From NCBI GenBank assembly GCA_001897525.1, contig MKTB01000007.1, positions 1 to 64,000 on the forward strand: a DNA stretch of 64,000 nucleotides, in the 5' to 3' direction. The stretch comes from Bacteroidetes bacterium 43-16 (GTDB lineage: Bacteria; Bacteroidota; Bacteroidia; Chitinophagales; Chitinophagaceae). The position numbers were made by a program, and so were the translations under genes. Numbering within the stretch: the first letter of the stretch is position 1; each line of letters begins with the position of its first letter. Shown one piece after another: positions 1,302 through 64,000 of the stretch. The notes under the pieces were generated by a model. That model was not told where the DNA came from and ran no database searches. It saw nothing but the letters and a program-made list of their open reading frames with translations.

Positions 1302-3542
1302 TTAACTCTGACCCGAAAGTTCAAGTTTACGGTATGCTTTTATAAATATAGCCCCTAAGTTTTTATTCGGCGGAATGTAATCACTGAACAGTTCTTTTTC
1401 ACGTACACTCTTGTTGGCAAAAAACTTGCCCAGCGTTTGCCACATTTCCAGCCAGTCTACTCTTTTACCGGCCAGCAGGTATTCGTTCATGTTCCTGATA
1501 ATAGGATCATTCACCATGTAGGTACCTATCTGCTTAGTAGAAATAATATGTGCATCGGGTGCTTTATCGAGTACATTGGCCAGGTTGTGAAAACCGCCGC
1601 AGGAGCCGAGCATTACGATCTTTACATCAGGCGTTAAGCCTTTAAGCGATCCTTCCAGGTGATAGCTGTGCCCCCTGTGGATCACAACGGCCGGCCTGAT
1701 CTCGTTTGCATCCAAATATTCATACAGTTTATTCTGAGCCTTCTCGTCATCAGGCTCTGTCAATGGTTTATTGGCATAGTAGGTCACTTTCTTATCGCCT
1801 ACACTGGTGATAGTGGTCCAGTTAGGATTGTTCTCATCTATTTTCCAGCTTTTATTGCCCCTGAAATTGGCCAGGAAAAAGCCATAGGAGTCTTTACCAT
1901 CTTTATCTCCATAGAAGAAGGCCTGGGCGACTACTTCACCGGATGCATTACTCAATGCTTCGATGTCCAGGTAATTGATCGGTGGTATTTCTTTAACTGC
2001 ATCCTGCAGGTCATCAGGATCGGCAGAACTATTAAAGATACTGGCCAGCAGCCCGTAGATAATAACGCCTTTCTCCTGCTCTGCTTTGCTTAATGTTTTG
2101 CTCTTGTTTTTATACACTCTTTCATAGTTGTCCTTGACTTCATTTTTCAGGAATACGATGAGTTCTTTATCAGTAAGGCTACCGAAACCATCTGCTACAT
2201 CTACCGCATCTTTGAGGTCAGAGCGGGAGCCTTTTTCCAGGCCGGCCACGAAATCCCTTAACAGCGTTGTCTTTTGTGTCTCGGTCATCGTTTTCAGGAA
2301 CTCTGAAATGGTGTTGTAACCGGCAGACATCCTGATGAAGGTCCTGAAATTGGACATCCTCACGGTTTCCAGTAAGGTATAACCGGATTCTTTCCCCATT
2401 TTTGCCATCATGCGCTTGAAAATACCCAAATAAGAACTGGTATAAATCTCATTGGTCTCTCCGCCCAAAAGCATGAAATAATATTCCTGCGGATCAAAGC
2501 CTTCTACAGACTTGAAACGCACAGCATCTGAAGCTTCATGCAGTTCGTTCACTTTTCTTACATATACAAGTGATTGTACTTCGAGTTCTTTATCAATTTC
2601 CGCTTCTGAAATGGCTTTACCGGAAATTTTCAATTTTACCAGGCTTTTGTAATAGGCATCCTGGTTCTGAACGATCTGGTTAGCCTGATCGATCGTCATA
2701 TCACCATCCTTGATCTGGTTCATGAACTGCAAAACTCTGAAGGAGGTCTTCGGCGATTTATCAATGATATTGACAATCGTTTTAACGGCTGGGTCCTGGT
2801 TTCTCCGGATGATATAGCCATACTTCGAGTTGGGCGCTGCATAGGACATGATGGAACGCGGAGAGGACTTCGCCGCTGCGGCTATGATCTCATCTGTATA
2901 CGGTTCACTGGCGATCTTGTCCAGGTACATCAGCATTTTTTCGGGGTACTGTAAGCCTACCGATTTATAAACATAAGCCCGGGCTTCTTTATTATTGTTC
3001 AGTACTTCTATATTATCTAAGGTGTACAGGTTGGCATTTGCTTTCACAAAATCCATAGTAGTACCGTTGATCTCTGCCATGATCAGGCCTTCGAAGTTTT
3101 TCATCAACTGGCGATAACCTACGGCATCCACATTGTCATTGGCAATGGACTTAAACTGATTGAGTTTGGCAAATAATGCATTGTGGTAAGCAATTTTTTG
3201 AGAATGCGTAATATTAGCGTTCTCAATCTTGTTCCTTAGCTTCAAGGCATCCACTAAAAAGGCCTGGGTCAGTAATTTAGACTTTGTAGGGTCCGGGTTG
3301 GCCACAACACCGTCTACAGAGCCGTCTTTGGCATCAATGCCTCTTATAGCGCTGCTTACCCTGTCGGTAAACATCTGGCGGTTCAGCGGGATGGGGGCCA
3401 GCAAAGTATCGGCAGTACCGGGATTGGCATTTTGCTCGGTTGCTTTGTTTTTCTTCCTGTCAGACCTGGATTCTTGTGCTAAACTTGTATAACCACTGAT
3501 CAGTGTGAGGCCTAGCAGCGGGATGAGTTTATAAGGATTCAT
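1302..3542 (-). CDS. Secreted protein with C-terminal caspase/CHAT-like His-Cys pair
   Basis: The frame is open from 3596, but the likely start is the ATG at 3542, because it begins a standard signal peptide (MNPYKLIPLLGLTLISGYTSLAQ, cut after AQ); this gives 746 residues. The middle is helical and unrecognised. The last about 150 residues contain IHRGHSYH followed about 20 residues later by VMLGSCGG. A hydrophobic strand ending in a His-Gly element followed by a strand ending in Cys is the layout of clan CD peptidases (caspases, gingipains, CHAT). The His/Cys reading is inference from motif spacing; it has not been tested by profile search. The gene stands alone between terminators. It could instead be a non-catalytic surface protein. 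Confidence 0.7.
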   Translation of the reverse strand: MNPYKLIPLLGLTLISGYTSLAQESRSDRKKNKATEQNANPGTADTLLAPIPLNRQMFTDRVSSAIRGIDAKDGSVDGVVANPDPTKSKLLTQAFLVDALKLRNKIENANITHSQKIAYHNALFAKLNQFKSIANDNVDAVGYRQLMKNFEGLIMAEINGTTMDFVKANANLYTLDNIEVLNNNKEARAYVYKSVGLQYPEKMLMYLDKIASEPYTDEIIAAAAKSSPRSIMSYAAPNSKYGYIIRRNQDPAVKTIVNIIDKSPKTSFRVLQFMNQIKDGDMTIDQANQIVQNQDAYYKSLVKLKISGKAISEAEIDKELEVQSLVYVRKVNELHEASDAVRFKSVEGFDPQEYYFMLLGGETNEIYTSSYLGIFKRMMAKMGKESGYTLLETVRMSNFRTFIRMSAGYNTISEFLKTMTETQKTTLLRDFVAGLEKGSRSDLKDAVDVADGFGSLTDKELIVFLKNEVKDNYERVYKNKSKTLSKAEQEKGVIIYGLLASIFNSSADPDDLQDAVKEIPPINYLDIEALSNASGEVVAQAFFYGDKDGKDSYGFFLANFRGNKSWKIDENNPNWTTITSVGDKKVTYYANKPLTEPDDEKAQNKLYEYLDANEIRPAVVIHRGHSYHLEGSLKGLTPDVKIVMLGSCGGFHNLANVLDKAPDAHIISTKQIGTYMVNDPIIRNMNEYLLAGKRVDWLEMWQTLGKFFANKSVREKELFSDYIPPNKNLGAIFIKAYRKLELSGQS

Positions 3543-58031: not shown

Positions 58032-58541
58032 ATGAAGAAATTAATACCGTTATCTGCGATGATTTTACTGTTATCTTGCAAGAATGGTACCAGTCAATCT
58101 AACACGAAGCCTCAACGTATGTATACTGAAGCAGAATTACAAGAGGCTGTCCGTAAGGCTAAAGAACAGGAAAAATCAGATAATGATGCTATACAAGTTG
58201 CACTAACTGCTGGTAGAATGGCCAGAGAACTAGAAAAACAAAAAGAAAACCCTAAAATATATTATGTGTTTGGTATAATACACGCTTCTTATTCAAGTCA
58301 TACCATTCCACCTCAAATTGATTACTATTCTTATTCAACCAAAATAATTGAGTATTCTCATAAACCTACAAGAGATGATGAATATAGAATTTTGGACGAT
58401 TTAGACCGAAGTGACCAGATCAGTATTGATCGAAAAGTCCACTATGACTTTAAAACCCTTAAACGAAAAGTATTCGTTTTTGATTCATACGCAGATGCTA
58501 GTGAAAAACAACAGTTTGTTTATAAATACGGGTTAGAATAA
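58032..58541 (+). CDS. Small lipoprotein, unknown
   Basis: A 169-residue protein with a lipoprotein signal (MKKLIPLSAMILLLSCKNGTS, lipobox LLSC). A helical, charged middle (YTEAELQEAVRKAKEQEKS) is followed by a beta-rich C-terminal part (YYVFGIIHASYSSH, VFDSYADASEKQQFVY). No family recognised. It is 27 bases upstream of the next plus-strand gene, so both likely share a transcript starting near the structured element. Confidence 0.65.
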   Translation: MKKLIPLSAMILLLSCKNGTSQSNTKPQRMYTEAELQEAVRKAKEQEKSDNDAIQVALTAGRMARELEKQKENPKIYYVFGIIHASYSSHTIPPQIDYYSYSTKIIEYSHKPTRDDEYRILDDLDRSDQISIDRKVHYDFKTLKRKVFVFDSYADASEKQQFVYKYGLE

Positions 58542-58568
58542 CTAATTTTTCACCTTTAAATAAATATT

Positions 58569-58919
58569 ATGACTAAGAAAGAATATTTCGAAAGATTAAC
58601 TGAAAATGAAATTAAAATGGGAGATTCGTTTATGATTTTTCATCAACCCCCTAACAATCTTGATAATGGTACACTAGAGATTAACGGGTCAACAACTAAT
58701 GCAGTATTTCTAACTATGAACACAGATTATTTGGTAACGGAAGAATCAGGAATCTTAAAAGTTGGCTTGAAAATGGTAAACAATAACCGAAGAATATCAT
58801 TCAAAAAAGATACTAAACTTAATATTCTTGTTGAACCTTTTGGTGATTGGTTATATTTTAAGGTAGATGATTTTGAGCGGATATTAAACGATCAACTATT
58901 CGTGTTTGTAGGCTCCTAA
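58569..58919 (+). CDS. Small protein, unknown
   Basis: A 116-residue soluble, beta-rich protein (FMIFHQPPNNLDNGTLEING, TNAVFLTMNTDYLVTEESGILKVGL, LNILVEPFGDWLYFKVDDFERIL). No family, signal peptide or membrane segment recognised. Second gene of a pair with the lipoprotein; a terminator lies 142 bases downstream. Confidence 0.6.
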   Translation: MTKKEYFERLTENEIKMGDSFMIFHQPPNNLDNGTLEINGSTTNAVFLTMNTDYLVTEESGILKVGLKMVNNNRRISFKKDTKLNILVEPFGDWLYFKVDDFERILNDQLFVFVGS

Positions 58920-59043
58920 TCTCAAACATCATATCATAGAATATTTCATCATTTGGAAGCATTTCCCTAATGCGAGGTTTGAGGAGATTAATTTCTATTT
59001 TTATCAACTTTGCGTATATTGATTTTCTATCCCGAGGTTTCAT
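58858..59043 (-). CDS. Possible small protein, unknown
   Basis: A 61-residue, charged, helical frame (MKPRDRKSIYAKLIKIEINL, MLPNDEIFYDMMFEIRSLQ) that reads like a natural protein. It overlaps the 3' end of the 58569 gene by 62 bases. The plus-strand terminator at 59061 suggests that the plus strand is transcribed through it, so it is a weak call. Confidence 0.3.
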   Translation of the reverse strand: MKPRDRKSIYAKLIKIEINLLKPRIREMLPNDEIFYDMMFEIRSLQTRIVDRLISAQNHLP

Positions 59044-59060
59044 TTTTGAATATTTTTACG

Positions 59061-59085
59061 GACCACCTTAACAGTGGTCTTTTTT
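59061..59085 (+). terminator. Intrinsic terminator after the 58032-58919 gene pair
   Basis: GACCAC (59061-59066) pairs with GTGGTC (59074-59079) around a 7-base loop, followed by six T residues. Confidence 0.8.
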
Positions 59086-59713
59086 GTTAACTGTTAAAAT
59101 GGAAGTAAAAATATCATCTATAATCACTTCATTATCTTATATTTGTGAAATCTCCAAACTCGACTGATCAATTAAGAAGGTTTTTATCCGACATTTTTCA
59201 CATTAAAAACCCAAACAACTGAAGCAGAAAAAGAAAAGAGAAAACTTCTGGTTTACTATCCTAATCATGCTACTACCGCATGTAGGTCAAAAAGTAACAA
59301 TCAAAAATGTTACTGTAAATTTTGAATTTAGTATCAACCTTACCGTCAAAAAAGTAAGGTAGGAGTAAGTAAGAGGTGTGAGTGAAAATTCACACCTTTT
59401 TTTATTTTAACTCAGTGTAGAATGGTATATTAGTGCCTAAAATAATATGAACAAGCAAAGTTAAAAAAAGTGCTATTTAATGACAGCACATTTTGTTCAT
59501 ACTACAATCTTTGATCAATTAATATATCGTTCAGGATAGCTTTTAGTTTGATTTTGACAAAGGTGTTTAGCTTTAATTGATAAGGCAAATTTCAACATAT
59601 TATTCAGATCAAACAATAGGCAAATTCCCGTATTTTTTAAATCACTATACAACAAAAGCCACCCCGAAGGATGACTTTCTTATTATTAGTATGGTGCTTC
59701 CACGTAATAAATT
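59086..59713. other. Gap with a possible gene remnant and a terminator
   Basis: A short plus-strand frame near 59215-59362 (...FWFTILIMLLPHVGQKVT...) has no ATG in frame and may be the end of a broken gene. It is followed by a good terminator: AGGTGTGA (59374-59381) with TCACACCT (59390-59397) and then a T-run. No other gene is recognised before repeat copy 3; a frame at 59577 only reads through the repeat. Confidence 0.45.
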
Positions 59714-59791
59714 ACCCGGTCGCTCCCTTAGCGATAAAATTAGCATTGCGCTTTTTCTAACATCTATACGGACTTTCACCGATACGCCGGG
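59714..59791 (+). repeat. Dispersed repeat family, copy 3 (subtype B)
   Basis: Begins ACCCGGTCGCTCCCTTAGCG and ends GGACTTTCACCGATACGCCGGG, so the outer ACCCGG/CCGGG ends pair. The 5' box (GGTCGCTCCCTTAG) is nearly identical to the copy at 59874. Same orientation as all other copies. Confidence 0.75.
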
Positions 59792-59873
59792 ATTGTCTGC
59801 TAGTAAGGGATATACTGCTAATTTCTCTTTGAAGTAAAGATATATCAATGAATGTAAATAAAGTGTAAAAAAT

Positions 59874-59930
59874 ACCTGGTCGCTTCCCTTAGTGCTCACA
59901 CAAAAATCAGACTTCCACTGACTCGCCAGG
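59874..59930 (+). repeat. Dispersed repeat family, copy 4 (subtype B)
   Basis: Begins ACCTGGTCGCTTCCCTTAG and ends CAGACTTCCACTGACTCGCCAGG. Here the outer pair is CCTGG/CCAGG, while copies 1 and 3 have CCCGG/CCGGG: both bases changed together, which supports a real base-paired stem. A conserved tail (GTGTTAAAATACAAGC, about 59974-59990) follows, as after copy 6. Confidence 0.8.
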
Positions 59931-60063
59931 CATACCTTAAATACGAGATTTTAGGCATGCCAGATTTCAAAAGAGTGTTAAAATACAAGCACTTATGATA
60001 TTTCAATTATTATTTAGTATTACTTTATGAAGACCTTCAAAACGAAAGTTTTTTAAGTTTCAT

Positions 60064-60101
60064 AATAATACAGCCTTGCATTCCTGCAAGGCTGTATTAT
60101 T
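60064..60101. terminator. Long perfect hairpin after the YodC-like gene
   Basis: A perfect 17-base inverted repeat (AATAATACAGCCTTGCA, loop TTCC, TGCAAGGCTGTATTATT). It lies 62 bases after the minus-strand stop at 60163 and probably ends that transcript. Confidence 0.88.
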
Positions 60102-60162
60102 TTAAGGATGGAAACATTATAAAAAGTCTCCCAGGAATGAGAAACCGTAATAGTATGAAAAA

Positions 60163-60381
60163 CTAATTAATTTTTGGAACTACATTATGTTCTAAGAACT
60201 CTTCTTCAAAAGTTTCGTATTCCCACCTTTTTTTAATTGTATTGTACCATTTACATTGAACTACGGGAATGCCTAAGTAGGAGCAGTTGGTTCTTACCAC
60301 GGACATACTTTCGAGGTGATATGGACTGTTCTTAAATTGAACATGATCACCAGTTCTGAATTTCAAAGTTTCTGCAATCAT
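60163..60381 (-). CDS. DUF2158 (YodC-like) small protein
   Basis: A 72-residue protein with the family pattern: KFRTGDHVQFKNSPYHLESMSVV (a short beta-barrel start), VQCKWYNTIKKRWEYETFEEEFLEH (the conserved CxW and E.F...L part). YodC-family proteins are of unknown function. It is located between repeat copies 4 and 5 and followed by its own terminator. Confidence 0.75.
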   Translation of the reverse strand: MIAETLKFRTGDHVQFKNSPYHLESMSVVRTNCSYLGIPVVQCKWYNTIKKRWEYETFEEEFLEHNVVPKIN

Positions 60382-60470
60382 TGTATATATTTTTTATATT
60401 TTCCCCATTGTAGAATTCCACAATCTCCGTGTGGATTATTTTTTAAGTTTATCCTGATTTCTATTGGAAA

Positions 60471-60532
60471 GCCCGGTCACGACCAATTCTACAAACAAAA
60501 TAAGTAATCAGACTTTCACTGACCTGCCAGGC
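60471..60532 (+). repeat. Dispersed repeat family, copy 5 (subtype B)
   Basis: Begins GCCCGGTCAC and ends ATCAGACTTTCACTGACCTG followed by CCAGGC. The outer pair GCCCGG/CCAGGC has one mismatch. The middle is AT-rich and diverged. Confidence 0.7.
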
Positions 60533-60580
60533 TATTGCGAAATTAATACAACAACCATGCCATTTCTATCGTTCTACAAA

Positions 60581-60611
60581 AAAGCCCCGCATTTCTGTGG
60601 GGCGGGGCTTT
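60581..60611 (-). terminator. Terminator after the 60840 gene
   Basis: AAAGCCCCGC (60581-60590) pairs perfectly with GCGGGGCTTT (60602-60611). On the minus strand it is followed by a run of T residues. It probably ends the transcript of the frameshifted minus-strand gene; the bases between 60612 and 60799 hold no recognised gene. Confidence 0.85.
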
Positions 60612-60799
60612 ACTGTAATTTTCTTGCTACGGCACTTCCAGCGCCCGGTTTCATCCATCCGCGAAGGAACTTTTGCTGTCTGGCATTCCTATTCGCTATT
60701 ACTGCTGTTCGATAGGTTAGCGAAGCGTATATCGAACAATCGAACCTGAGATTTAAGATTCCTTTATTAATTGTTCCGGCTATGCAGTTCTGAGCAATA

Positions 60800-61187
60800 C
60801 TATACCCACTTATTGGCAAGTATACTTTCCTTCAGGCGCTCATCCCAGCCTTCCAGATAATAAGGCATCAATCTTCTCTTTAAAATTACTGCTGTATTGT
60901 TCCAGCATTGAAACCTCTGCCCTATCCGCTTCAGAAAATCTTTTCTTTTCAACTATTGCTAATCCCTCCTTCAGCACCTGGTACGGACACTTCATTTCGG
61001 TATCTTCCCCATACGCCAGGATCCAGGAACGGCTATACTCCAAAGCAAATTCGTAGGGAGACCACCACCGGCGCATATCGCACACCCATAGTTTTTCCTC
61101 GATACACTTTAATAATGGTTTCTTGTATTGATAAATCAAGTTGACGCATTTGCCGATATAAACCGGCTCTATTAAGTTTAGCATCAC
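60800..61187 (-). pseudogene. Small gene, probably frameshifted near its 3' end
   Basis: The open frame gives 115 residues from 61187 to a stop at 60840 (MMLNLIEPVYIGKCVNLIYQ... EKIDALLSGRLG). In the next frame the same strand goes on with protein-like sequence from about 60868 to a stop at 60800 (MPYYLEGWDERLKESILANK then WV). Joining the two frames gives a natural-looking C-terminus (...KEKID, then PYYLEGWDERLKES...). I therefore suspect a one-base change in or near the run at about 60,870-60,880, real or sequencing error. Function unknown. Confidence 0.5.
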
Positions 61188-61459: not shown

Positions 61460-61493
61460 TAAAAAACCGGCTCAACAAATCTGTTAAGCCGGT
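61460..61493 (-). terminator. Terminator of the MNIO operon
   Basis: ACCGGCT (61466-61472) pairs with AGCCGGT (61487-61493), helped by an inner AAC/GTT pair. The minus strand then reads six T residues. It lies about 214 bases after the partner-protein stop, with repeat copy 6 between them. Confidence 0.75.
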
Positions 61494-61706: not shown

Positions 61707-62432
61707 TCAGACTAATGTAGCCAATAACACATTCAACTGTGCTTTATCCATCCTTTCTTCAATAATGGCGGTGGCCTCTGCATCTGAAAGCATCTGCACC
61801 GCAAACCGGCGATCCGTAAAATGGACAAGGTAAAAACAGTTAACTGCTGCTATAGCCTCATAGTCTACAGGAACACCGGCACCTAACTGATCCAAAGCAG
61901 CCAGCATCTGCACCACATCGTAGCGGCTAAACAATAGCCGGTTGGCAGTGCCCAGTGATTCCAGGAAAATAACCGCTTGTGAAGGTACATTATCCGTCAC
62001 GGCAAAGCGGATACAATTGCCCGCCATTTCAAGATTCACCAGGCTCTCCAGGATAGGGATATGGTTAATATTACCCAGGGCGATCTGCTCCAGCAGAAAC
62101 TGGCTAAATATCATCACCTCATCTTTGAACTGGAAATTGCTTTTGGGATAGTAAGCCCAGAATTGACGGGTGTACTCCCGCGTACGCTCACCCAGGATAT
62201 TGCAGGTATAAGGCATAAGGTCATACAAAGGGGTAAAGCGGTTGATCTGGTACAACATACAGCTGGTACCTATACCCCTGCTCTGCTGCAATAAGAATAT
62301 AATCCTGTCTTTTTCAAGCGATGTAAGAACATACTTTTCATCCAGCAACTCCGGATTTTGTTTAACGGCTCTGCAAAAGTCTCCATTCGCTACAAGGTCA
62401 GCAAAAGCCTGTTGAAATTCCTTTAAGGACAT
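61707..62432 (-). CDS. MNIO partner protein (MbnC/TglI/BufC type)
   Basis: A 241-residue soluble protein. It begins in a 10-base overlap with the DUF692 gene, a tight translational coupling typical for these enzyme pairs. The N-terminal helices (LKEFQQAFADLVANGDFCRAV), the YQINRFTPLYDLMPYTCNILG block and KDEVMIFSQFLLEQIALG resemble the partner proteins that bind the precursor leader in methanobactin, 3-thiaglutamate and bufferin pathways. In known systems the oxidase is active only with its partner. The family placement rests on position and general sequence pattern, not on a search. It is the last gene of the operon. Confidence 0.75.
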   Translation of the reverse strand: MSLKEFQQAFADLVANGDFCRAVKQNPELLDEKYVLTSLEKDRIIFLLQQSRGIGTSCMLYQINRFTPLYDLMPYTCNILGERTREYTRQFWAYYPKSNFQFKDEVMIFSQFLLEQIALGNINHIPILESLVNLEMAGNCIRFAVTDNVPSQAVIFLESLGTANRLLFSRYDVVQMLAALDQLGAGVPVDYEAIAAVNCFYLVHFTDRRFAVQMLSDAEATAIIEERMDKAQLNVLLATLV

Positions 62433-63313
62433 ACGATGTTTTTTGATTTCAGACAGATCGCTCTGGCGTGTTCCAATTGTTCTAAGATACCTTCATTACC
62501 CATAGTGTTGAAATAGGATTCATGAAACTCAAACGTGACACCCCTGAGATTGGGACAATTAGGCACCACATAATCCAGCAGCTCCCATACTTCATCATTG
62601 CATCTCCCGGAATGAGAATCCAGGTACATTTCGCCGATCACATTACCTCCGGCAATATGAATCTCTACCACATCTTTCAGGTCCAGGCTATCGATAAACT
62701 GTTTACGGTCAAAATTAAAATTAGTGGCATTGGCATGCACATTATGCAGATCCAGTAATAAACCGCAACCGCTTCTGTTGCACAGTTCGGCTAAGAATGC
62801 GCCCTCTTCATACTTTTCCTCATTAAATTTTACGAAATAAACATTGTTCTCCATCAGGAAAGGGGTGTCTACTTTTTCCTTTATCTGCCCTATCTTGCCG
62901 GTAAGCATTTCCATCACCTCTTCATCAAAGGTAAGGGGCAAAGCCAGGCAGGTACTGTATTCTGTAACTTCCTCATCATGTACCTTGCTGTAAGAAAGAT
63001 GATCACTGTTCCATAAAAATCCGAACTGCTCCTGCAGGCGGATCACATTGTCTAAATATGCTTCATCAAAATAACCGGCAGTACCCAGCGAAAAGCCCAC
63101 ATGATGCGCTACGAGCGGCCAGCGCTGTCCCAGTTCCAAAATGCGCTTTTCATAAGCAGGAAACATATCAAAACGACCCGCTGCACCTACACCTTTATCT
63201 GAAAACCAGGTATCAGGTATAATCTCTATATAATCTACAGCATCTGGTACGGTGTCCAACAGGGTATCAAGCGACCTGTTGTACAGTATCCCAACACCTA
63301 CAAAATCATTCAT
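62423..63313 (-). CDS. DUF692/MNIO multinuclear iron-dependent oxidase
   Basis: A 296-residue TIM-barrel enzyme of the MbnB/TglH/BufB family, which uses two or three iron atoms to oxidise cysteine in peptide precursors. Likely metal ligands are visible in the usual order: His in AHHVGFSLG (about 70-71), Asp and His in NSDHLS (104-105), Glu in MENN (155), Asp and His in LLDLHNVHANA (189-193), His in EIHIAGG (219), Asp and His in LDSHSG (232-234) and Glu in FEFHES (262). Full length. It is preceded by the precursor gene and overlapped by the partner gene, the diagnostic layout. Confidence 0.92.
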   Translation of the reverse strand: MNDFVGVGILYNRSLDTLLDTVPDAVDYIEIIPDTWFSDKGVGAAGRFDMFPAYEKRILELGQRWPLVAHHVGFSLGTAGYFDEAYLDNVIRLQEQFGFLWNSDHLSYSKVHDEEVTEYSTCLALPLTFDEEVMEMLTGKIGQIKEKVDTPFLMENNVYFVKFNEEKYEEGAFLAELCNRSGCGLLLDLHNVHANATNFNFDRKQFIDSLDLKDVVEIHIAGGNVIGEMYLDSHSGRCNDEVWELLDYVVPNCPNLRGVTFEFHESYFNTMGNEGILEQLEHARAICLKSKNIVCP

Positions 63314-63332
63314 AAGTCTATGTTTTAAATAA

Positions 63333-63379
63333 AAAATAGATATAACAATACATTTGTTAATGTCCGTTATATCTATTTT
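63333..63379 (-). promoter_or_regulatory. Long hairpin between precursor and oxidase genes
   Basis: A perfect 14-base inverted repeat: AAAATAGATATAAC (63333-63346) and GTTATATCTATTTT (63366-63379), loop 19 bases. It lies 24 bases after the precursor stop and 20 bases before the oxidase start. On the minus strand it is followed by a U-rich stretch, so it may act as a partial terminator, giving more precursor than enzyme, or as an RNA end protector. The stem is AT-rich and so weaker than its length suggests. Confidence 0.7.
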
Positions 63380-63402
63380 CTCAGGAAATTAAAATAAGCT
63401 GC

Positions 63403-63618
63403 TTAAATTTTTTCGGAGAATACGCCAACATAGTCAGCAATTTTTCCACCGGTAAATCCAGATCTGCAAGTTGGGCAGGTTGGCGGAATGCCGGTAAATC
63501 CGGAACGACATTCAGGACATAAAGGATCAAATCCAGGAATATCTTCTTCTCTGAAATTAGTCTGAACAGGCCTGTTAGATAATGTGGTTACTTCTGATTG
63601 GTTTGTTTGATTTTTCAT
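63403..63618 (-). CDS. RiPP precursor peptide with two CPxCRSGFTG motifs
   Basis: A 71-residue peptide. The leader-like N-terminus (MKNQTNQSEVTTLSNRPVQT, then NFREEDIPGFDPL) has no cysteine. Residues 34-43 and 48-57 are CPECRSGFTG and CPTCRSGFTG, giving Cys 34, 37, 48 and 51, followed by a short tail GKIADYVGVFSEKI. Doubled, cysteine-bearing core repeats directly upstream of a DUF692 gene are expected for an MNIO substrate. The alternative is a small zinc ribbon with two CPxC knuckles; the SGFTG repeats and the gene position favour a modified peptide. It is the first gene of the operon. Confidence 0.82.
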   Translation of the reverse strand: MKNQTNQSEVTTLSNRPVQTNFREEDIPGFDPLCPECRSGFTGIPPTCPTCRSGFTGGKIADYVGVFSEKI

Positions 63619-64000
63619 TTCTTTTCTAAGTTTAGATGTCTCCTACTCTATAAGCTTTTCGGAATACGCTTGTATTGTGTACATTAAAAATAATCCATTT
63701 AGATAATAAAAAAAAATATTTTTCTGGCACCGTATTATAACAGGCAATACAAATATTCGGAAATAGCCTATTACAACATAATTAAAAACCATGTAACGAT
63801 GTCTCCACCTGTCTCATAAAGAAGATAAGCGTACTTCCGTTATATTTTGTCGTTTAAACACAAACTAAAGTAATCATCAATGCAGACTTATCTGCAAAAA
63901 AATAATTACGGTTAATAAGAACCCGCTCCTGACAAGGATTACAAAAAAACAGCCTGTATGAATTAATCATTTTTTTTGCGGAAATTAAGCGTCCTCAAAC
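63619..64000. other. Upstream region of the MNIO operon, no gene recognised
   Basis: About 380 AT-rich bases. The minus-strand promoter of the RiPP operon should lie here, but no convincing TAnnTTTG/TTTG pair was found in the first 100 bases upstream of the precursor. No open frame of note is seen up to the window edge. Confidence 0.45.

Follow-up and report, generated by a model that had tools for sequence, protein, structure and literature searches.

A three-gene operon of Bacteroidetes bacterium 43-16 and its very probable product, a chemically modified peptide with duplicated CPxC motifs

MNIOs perform unusual cysteine chemistry, and new reactions have come from small uncharacterised clades. 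Among the described systems, DybH alone gives a change of -4 Da at CPACGMG, and its seven-residue motif suffices when placed on GFP (PMC12636315). The iron ligands of TglH, the MNIO of the 3-thiaglutamate pathway, are listed in PMC10880893. Bufferins chelate copper, and Antoine et al. tie PME-type 2 partner proteins to precursors without a signal peptide (PMC12452194).

Here we analysed a locus in a 64,000-nucleotide stretch of the genome of Bacteroidetes bacterium 43-16 (hereafter the window). Its three genes form one operon whose product is very probably a chemically modified peptide, with an iron enzyme and a helper acting on a short cysteine-motif peptide, and an MNIO-RiPP operon is the supported and best reading of the locus. 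The points established from the sequence are the gene order, the families, the conservation of ligands and motif, the selection, the RNA element and the hairpins. The features, in the order of transcription, are as follows.

63640-63672, minus strand: DUF805b RNA element (Rfam RF02914; 39.2 bits, gathering score 35.6), 21 bases before the precursor ATG
63403-63618, minus strand: ORF of the precursor peptide, 71 aa, with two CPxCRSGF repeats
63496-63519, minus strand: first motif of the precursor, CPECRSGF
63454-63477, minus strand: second motif of the precursor, CPTCRSGF
63331-63381, minus strand: hairpin with a T run in the gap between precursor and oxidase, a possible attenuator (z -4.95)
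62423-63313, minus strand: MNIO (DUF692) oxidase, 296 aa (PF05114, 181.3 bits)
61707-62432, minus strand: TglI-like partner, 241 aa (AlphaFold2 model matches TglI 8hci_A, E 5.3e-5)
61466-61493, minus strand: terminator-like hairpin at the operon end (12-pair stem and T tail; region z -4.0)

The three ORFs are intact, every start is ATG, and the partner gene begins 10 bases before the end of the oxidase gene. A first-pass annotation of the window had proposed this minus-strand layout of precursor, oxidase and partner, together with the 10-base overlap (61707-62432 against 62423-63313), the cysteine-bearing precursor and a terminator belonging to the cluster itself; all of these were recovered, the terminator as the T-tailed stem 214 bases beyond the last base of the partner. 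It had also seen no transporter, protease or copper gene adjoining the cluster. In agreement with this, a Pfam scan (E 0.001) of the ORFs of 58,032-61,187 and, on the opposite side, of contig positions 64,494-67,190 identified a glycosyltransferase as the sole recognizable gene among eight ORFs, the other seven matching nothing at this threshold. No other tailoring gene was recognised adjoining the operon.

The oxidase matched PF05114 with 181.3 bits against a cut-off of 25, as expected from its earlier assignment to DUF692. The predicted iron ligands H70, H105, E155, D188, N191, H219, D232, H234 and E262 were invariant in 7 of 7 homologues, which bears out the earlier claim that the expected ligands are present. 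Eight of them align, in a profile alignment, with H71, H107, E151, D184, N187, H216, D229 and H231 of TglH, and for E262 the pairing with TglH E258 comes from the motif alone, the automatic alignment being shifted at this position. Among NCBIfam models, the best match was BufB with 158.3 bits, below its cut-off of 310, and ChrH gave 65.1 bits, below its cut-off of 600.

We then placed the oxidase in a tree of 57 rows from 61; loci retrieved a second time or on account of other genes had been skipped before this selection, and the dropped rows were the repeats L047, L049 and L006 and, in addition, L010, a distinct ChrH-like row of T. helva (G005). The motif-linked oxidases and the long-branched L072 formed 11 rows with support of 81/82; 17 ChrH-like rows stood apart (100/100), as did 29 bufferin-like and other rows. 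In this phylogeny, the oxidase group is separate from the ChrH-like and the bufferin-type oxidases. As one clade, the seven oxidases encoded by a separate gene had support of only 67/61. L072 joined the long-oxidase group described below on a very long branch, a join of which the tree program warned that it is possibly false, and its peptide carries CTACGLNG, not CPxCxSG, an exception that counts against reading these rows as a motif group. At that locus, the oxidase has the CTACGLNG peptide (1190-1408) before it and an ORF of 178 aa (2340-2876) after it, and L072 is possibly a further CxxC-type MNIO group.

Other MNIO loci were observed in the course of these searches. The window genome has a second, ChrH-like MNIO in a separate cluster (C15:279271-279936; L002), preceded by three peptides that end in CPACGMG, CPACGMG and CITCGRG and that have signal- or lipoprotein-type N-termini by eye. 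Elsewhere in Bacteroidota, small ORFs rich in K, C and G accompany the MNIO at L031, L032, L036-L041, L063 and L065; several of these bufferin- or EGKCG-like clusters also have sigma-factor-like ORFs (by eye). A plasmid search with the oxidase gave 354 records, all below 60% identity. Five were examined among the 30 matches listed: two had a bufferin-type DUF2282 gene, one had copper-resistance neighbours, one (Streptomyces) had no clear precursor, and one, unannotated, had no CPxCxSG peptide among its ORFs listed. Neither the L070 nor the KBW10 precursor had a match among plasmids.

The partner matched no Pfam family, and DUF2063 was detected in none of its 7 homologues. An AlphaFold2 model from seven sequences (pLDDT 79.6, pTM 0.68) is helical in its N-terminal part and combines strands and helices in its C-terminal part. 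When compared with the PDB, the model matched TglI of TglHI (8hci_A) with E 5.3e-5, TM 0.49/0.44 and rmsd 6.0; this was the only structure at E <=0.001, the next having E 0.65 among the 50 listed of 138 matches, and NGO1945 (3dee), the other partner-type structure, was absent from these 50. A profile sequence search against the PDB gave 18 matches (best E 0.22), none of them credible. On its predicted fold, the partner is TglI-like and of PME-type 2. Among the pathways that the first-pass annotation had named as examples, the partner resembles TglI, and the locus lacks tested features of the methanobactin, bufferin and chryseobasin groups.

Oxidase matches were found in 7 of 59 genomes, its own included, and were close in three: the window genome (G000), Taibaiella sp. 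KBW10 (G003), which falls in the same genus, and T. helva. An order-level sample of 396 genomes added G385, a member of the same family as the window genome. A first scan of genome contigs with the single oxidase gave no relatives among 24 stretches, and a second, with an alignment as the query, gave five loci (KBW10, a Crocinitomix MAG, T. chishuiensis, T. koreensis and T. helva). The subclade totals seven genomes, and the other six oxidases are 47-73% identical to that of the window; of the five same-genus genomes among the 59, two have it, with different neighbours. The order of precursor, oxidase and partner is the same in 7/7 genomes, with two precursors each in T. helva and T. koreensis, and in six the last two genes share 10 or 11 bases, those of G385 being 5 bases apart. 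As the first reading of the locus had implied, a motif peptide stands beside the oxidase in all seven genomes, with CPxC in six and CQAC in one. Between the window genome and KBW10, dN was 0.20 for the oxidase (dS ~2.1), 0.41 for the precursor and 0.49 for the partner, with silent sites near or past saturation, and between T. helva and T. koreensis the oxidase had dN 0.065 and dS 1.22. Judged from codon comparison, the trio is under purifying selection.

The motif itself is rare in the window. Among the 57,457 residues of its 658 open-frame segments (>=40 aa), CP.C.SG occurred twice and the looser C..C.SG three times, and none of 200 single-base shuffles of the window contained DNA coding for CPxCRSGF, which the window has twice. 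A search of the window genome for CPxCxSGF gave four matches: two are the precursor, the third (C10) has an in-frame stop, and at the fourth (C19) no small ORF of at least 40 aa shows the motif. Across the seven genomes, C-x-x-C-x-S-G is present in 9/9 precursors and CP in eight of them. The full repeat is found twice in the precursors of the window genome, KBW10 and Crocinitomix; a single CxxC-x-SG is found in those of T. chishuiensis, G385 and the more distant loci L061, L062 and L070. In the alignment, a double glycine could be read between leader and core in seven of the nine precursors (5/7 genomes), the window genome and G385 being without it; where KBW10 has SIIGG, the window precursor lacks the double glycine. 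A class I lanthipeptide leader model gave weak matches to 3/9 precursors (best E 0.0097), and no Sec-type N-terminus was seen by eye on the window precursor. By eye, the hydrophobic spacing that follows the motif looks alike across precursors and the leader varies. Recognition via the motif or the follower is possible, since the leader differs between carriers and this spacing is similar.

The search was widened to 395 genomes sampled across the phylum and to two order-level samples of 128 and 250 genomes. At L061, L062 and L070, it gave more distant oxidases of 487-489 aa that have ~190 extra residues behind the MNIO domain, and each is preceded by a peptide with CPACHSGF, CPTCYSGF or CPGCYSGF. 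These peptides consist, by eye, of V-x-V-P, a helical-looking stretch, the motif and a strand-looking stretch, a layout also found in the G385 precursor. The long oxidases may be fusions of oxidase and partner; comparison of the partner profile with their C-terminal part gave a probability of 10.7% (E 0.0029), and an AlphaFold2 model of one long oxidase (mean pLDDT 59.8) was too weak in that part. When the ORFs of 30-249 aa at 74 loci (L001-L074) were scanned for C..C.SG, the only occurrences outside the motif-linked loci were at L040 and L007/L047, which we take as chance matches. With moderate confidence, the comparison suggests that the motif stayed constant within the oxidase group and the carrier peptide changed. 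Because the motif was kept with the oxidase group through this change, L072 excepted, the motif appears to be the substrate. L062 has, in addition, a second peptide (2801-3067, minus strand) that resembles its CPTCYSGF precursor and has YPDGYAGF, with neither cysteine of the motif kept; it may be a decoy, have another function or reflect decay.

DUF805b RNA was detected at gathering score 20-26 bases before the precursor at 6 of 10 loci of the wider family (window genome, KBW10, Crocinitomix, T. chishuiensis, L062 and L070). With the weak matches of T. helva (27.8 bits, 32 bases before the precursor) and T. koreensis (29.2 bits, 31 bases) the count is 8 of 10, and none was detected up to E 0.1 at G385 and L061. 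The element is rare, and it also stands upstream of genes unrelated to the MNIO pathway: five copies exceed the gathering score in the 4.7 Mb window genome, the other four (C5:167550, C18:54847, C33:183033 and C33:183568) preceding three small secreted-looking proteins and one membrane protein, and 29 of 39 genomes have matches at E 0.001, 22 of them above the cut-off. The element may be the mark of a regulon whose members are small exported proteins. Directly before the CPxC precursor of the Crocinitomix MAG lies a tandem array of five 42-aa double-glycine peptides (L024, 3527-4510) with leaders similar to that of the precursor, every peptide having its own DUF805b RNA; this array is perhaps a peptide-signal or bacteriocin set that shares export and regulation. 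A strong hairpin between precursor and oxidase is present at 6/7 loci (z -3.2 to -6.3) and absent in G385. A simple terminator scan, which found 4 terminator-like sites versus 2.0 in shuffles (sd 1.3), listed the closing hairpin of the window operon and left the internal one unlisted. The internal hairpin would cause partial termination that favours the precursor over the enzyme.

With regard to export, the gene pair convergent to the KBW10 operon encodes a C39-peptidase ABC exporter (Peptidase_C39, 110 bits by Pfam), the only match of that genome to the C39 peptidase domain, and a protein of 149 aa; 30 bases separate the end of this second gene from that of the partner gene. A C39-peptidase exporter was matched in 7/7 genomes of the subclade, weakly in the Crocinitomix MAG (E 4.7e-11, 237-aa frame). 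The window genome has two related C39 exporters elsewhere, both adjoining grasp-with-spasm maturases; the SPASM proteins pass their cut-off, and the ATP-grasp proteins score 214 and 194 bits, under 230. These clusters (C33:188000-200000, L056; C17:1-12000, L057) also have HlyD-like and TolC-like ORFs by eye. For the window precursor, which lacks the double glycine, export is therefore doubtful.

Taken together, we consider that the MNIO and its TglI-like partner oxidise both CPxCRSGF repeats of the ribosomal peptide, with a probability of about 0.78. The DUF805b RNA and the internal hairpin would set the amount of precursor relative to enzyme. In the cytoplasm, the partner would hold the precursor, probably via its RRE-like C-terminal domain, and pass each repeat to the iron site of the oxidase, where the two proteins together would oxidise both repeats. 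An O2-dependent four-electron oxidation of each cysteine pair is proposed, -4 Da per repeat being the single likeliest outcome. In most relatives, the product would be cut after the double glycine and exported by the C39-peptidase ABC transporter; in the window genome this step is doubtful.

By analogy, the favoured products are a ChrH-like macrocycle with hydantoin or a thiooxazole, the latter not far behind. That each CPxCRSG repeat becomes the ChrH/DybH-like macrocycle, at which a different MNIO clade would have arrived independently, is the leading specific guess because C, P, C and G are common to the window motif and CPxCGxG; the partner-free action of DybH at CPACGMG and the sufficiency of its motif on GFP fit such a product. 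We hold this assignment tentatively, as the oxidase falls outside the ChrH-like clade (100/100) with 65 bits against the ChrH cut-off of 600, R-S replaces G-M, the residues whose amide protons vanish in DybA being Met and Gly, and a partner is present here although DybH works without one. Somewhat more doubtful is the conversion of the cysteines into thiooxazole- or oxazolone-type groups, which would give a metal-binding peptide of the kind known from bufferins and methanobactins. Among NCBIfam models the oxidase scores highest against BufB, and bufferins do chelate copper; but the 158 bits are far below 310, the partner is not DUF2063, no Sec-type N-terminus was recognised by eye on the precursor, and the eight scanned neighbour ORFs include no copper gene.

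It is unlikely that the pathway of the window genome is decaying or has changed its role, with the enzyme intact and the precursor no longer exported. The loss of the double glycine that KBW10 retains would fit this, as would the lack of an adjoining exporter, the two close C39 exporters belonging to the grasp-with-spasm clusters elsewhere; against it, the three frames are intact, both repeats are perfect, the DUF805b element and hairpins are kept, and dN of the oxidase is well below dS. Finally, the 71-aa protein might be a small zinc-ribbon protein, the oxidase modifying something else, its CxxC-x10-CxxC spacing resembling a zinc knuckle and three scanned precursors (window, with Zn_ribbon_19 at E 0.00035 and 21.1 bits, cut-off 30.8; KBW10; Crocinitomix) giving weak matches below the cut-off, but we rejected this as the main reading and regard it as very improbable, because the single CxxC-x-SG of five relatives falls short of the four cysteines of a zinc site, such matches are missing from the precursors of T. 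chishuiensis, T. koreensis (one scanned) and G385, and seven of nine precursors have double-glycine leaders.

Returning to oxidation of both repeats as the preferred reading, the operon is a compact and directly testable system, with a short precursor bearing two near-identical substrate units, one oxidase and one partner. The carrier switch among relatives and the RNA element provide handles on substrate recognition and regulation. A more far-reaching proposal, which we consider rather doubtful, is that the TglI-partnered Bacteroidota oxidase clade independently took a CPxC-x-x-G substrate resembling that of ChrH and forms one macrocycle per CPxC[R/L]SG repeat, tandem repeats giving a bis-macrocyclic peptide, with a motif portable between a folded carrier (putatively fused oxidases, G385) and secreted double-glycine peptides under DUF805b control. 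In the accessible parts of the literature, we found no description of a double-glycine MNIO precursor or of a DUF805b RNA before an MNIO gene, and no paper on the DUF805b RNA itself was among the matches listed.

Compared with known systems, the locus differs from methanobactin in having no MbnC-type partner (no Pfam match, and a fold match to TglI), and membership of that group was rejected on this ground. With bufferins and EGKCG/oxazolins it shares the gene order of precursor, oxidase and partner and differs in its cysteine motifs; bufferin membership was rejected on the missed BufB cut-off (158.3 against 310) and the lack of a DUF2063 partner. The leader style of seven of the nine precursors is that of Bacteroidota double-glycine RiPPs with C39 exporters, from which the system differs by an MNIO in place of lanthipeptide enzymes and, in the window, by a precursor without double glycine. 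Adjamnio-7 precursors, as described in PMC12452194, lack a signal peptide and have a CxxC motif beside an MNIO, and the window precursor resembles them in its CxxC motif and, by eye, in its N-terminus; that set may already include the CPxC[R/L/H/Y]SG group, of which we found no description as an MNIO group in the accessible literature. TglHI resembles the locus in an MNIO with the same iron ligands, a partner with a helical N-terminal and an RRE-like C-terminal domain (here predicted) and a precursor without signal peptide (here by eye), but the target in TglA is one C-terminal cysteine added by TglB (PMC9016710 and PMC10880893), and here there are two encoded internal CPxC repeats. Lastly, ChrH/DybH of chryseobasin likewise place an MNIO beside a CPxC-x-x-G motif; the window oxidase belongs to another clade, has 296 aa versus ~380 and a TglI-like partner, and its motif, CPxCRSG, is internal and duplicated with RS for GM and does not conform to CPxCGxG. 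Membership of the ChrH group was rejected (65.1 bits versus 600, outside the ChrH-like clade), and the comparison asks whether the same CPxC motif leads to the same product in separate MNIO clades.
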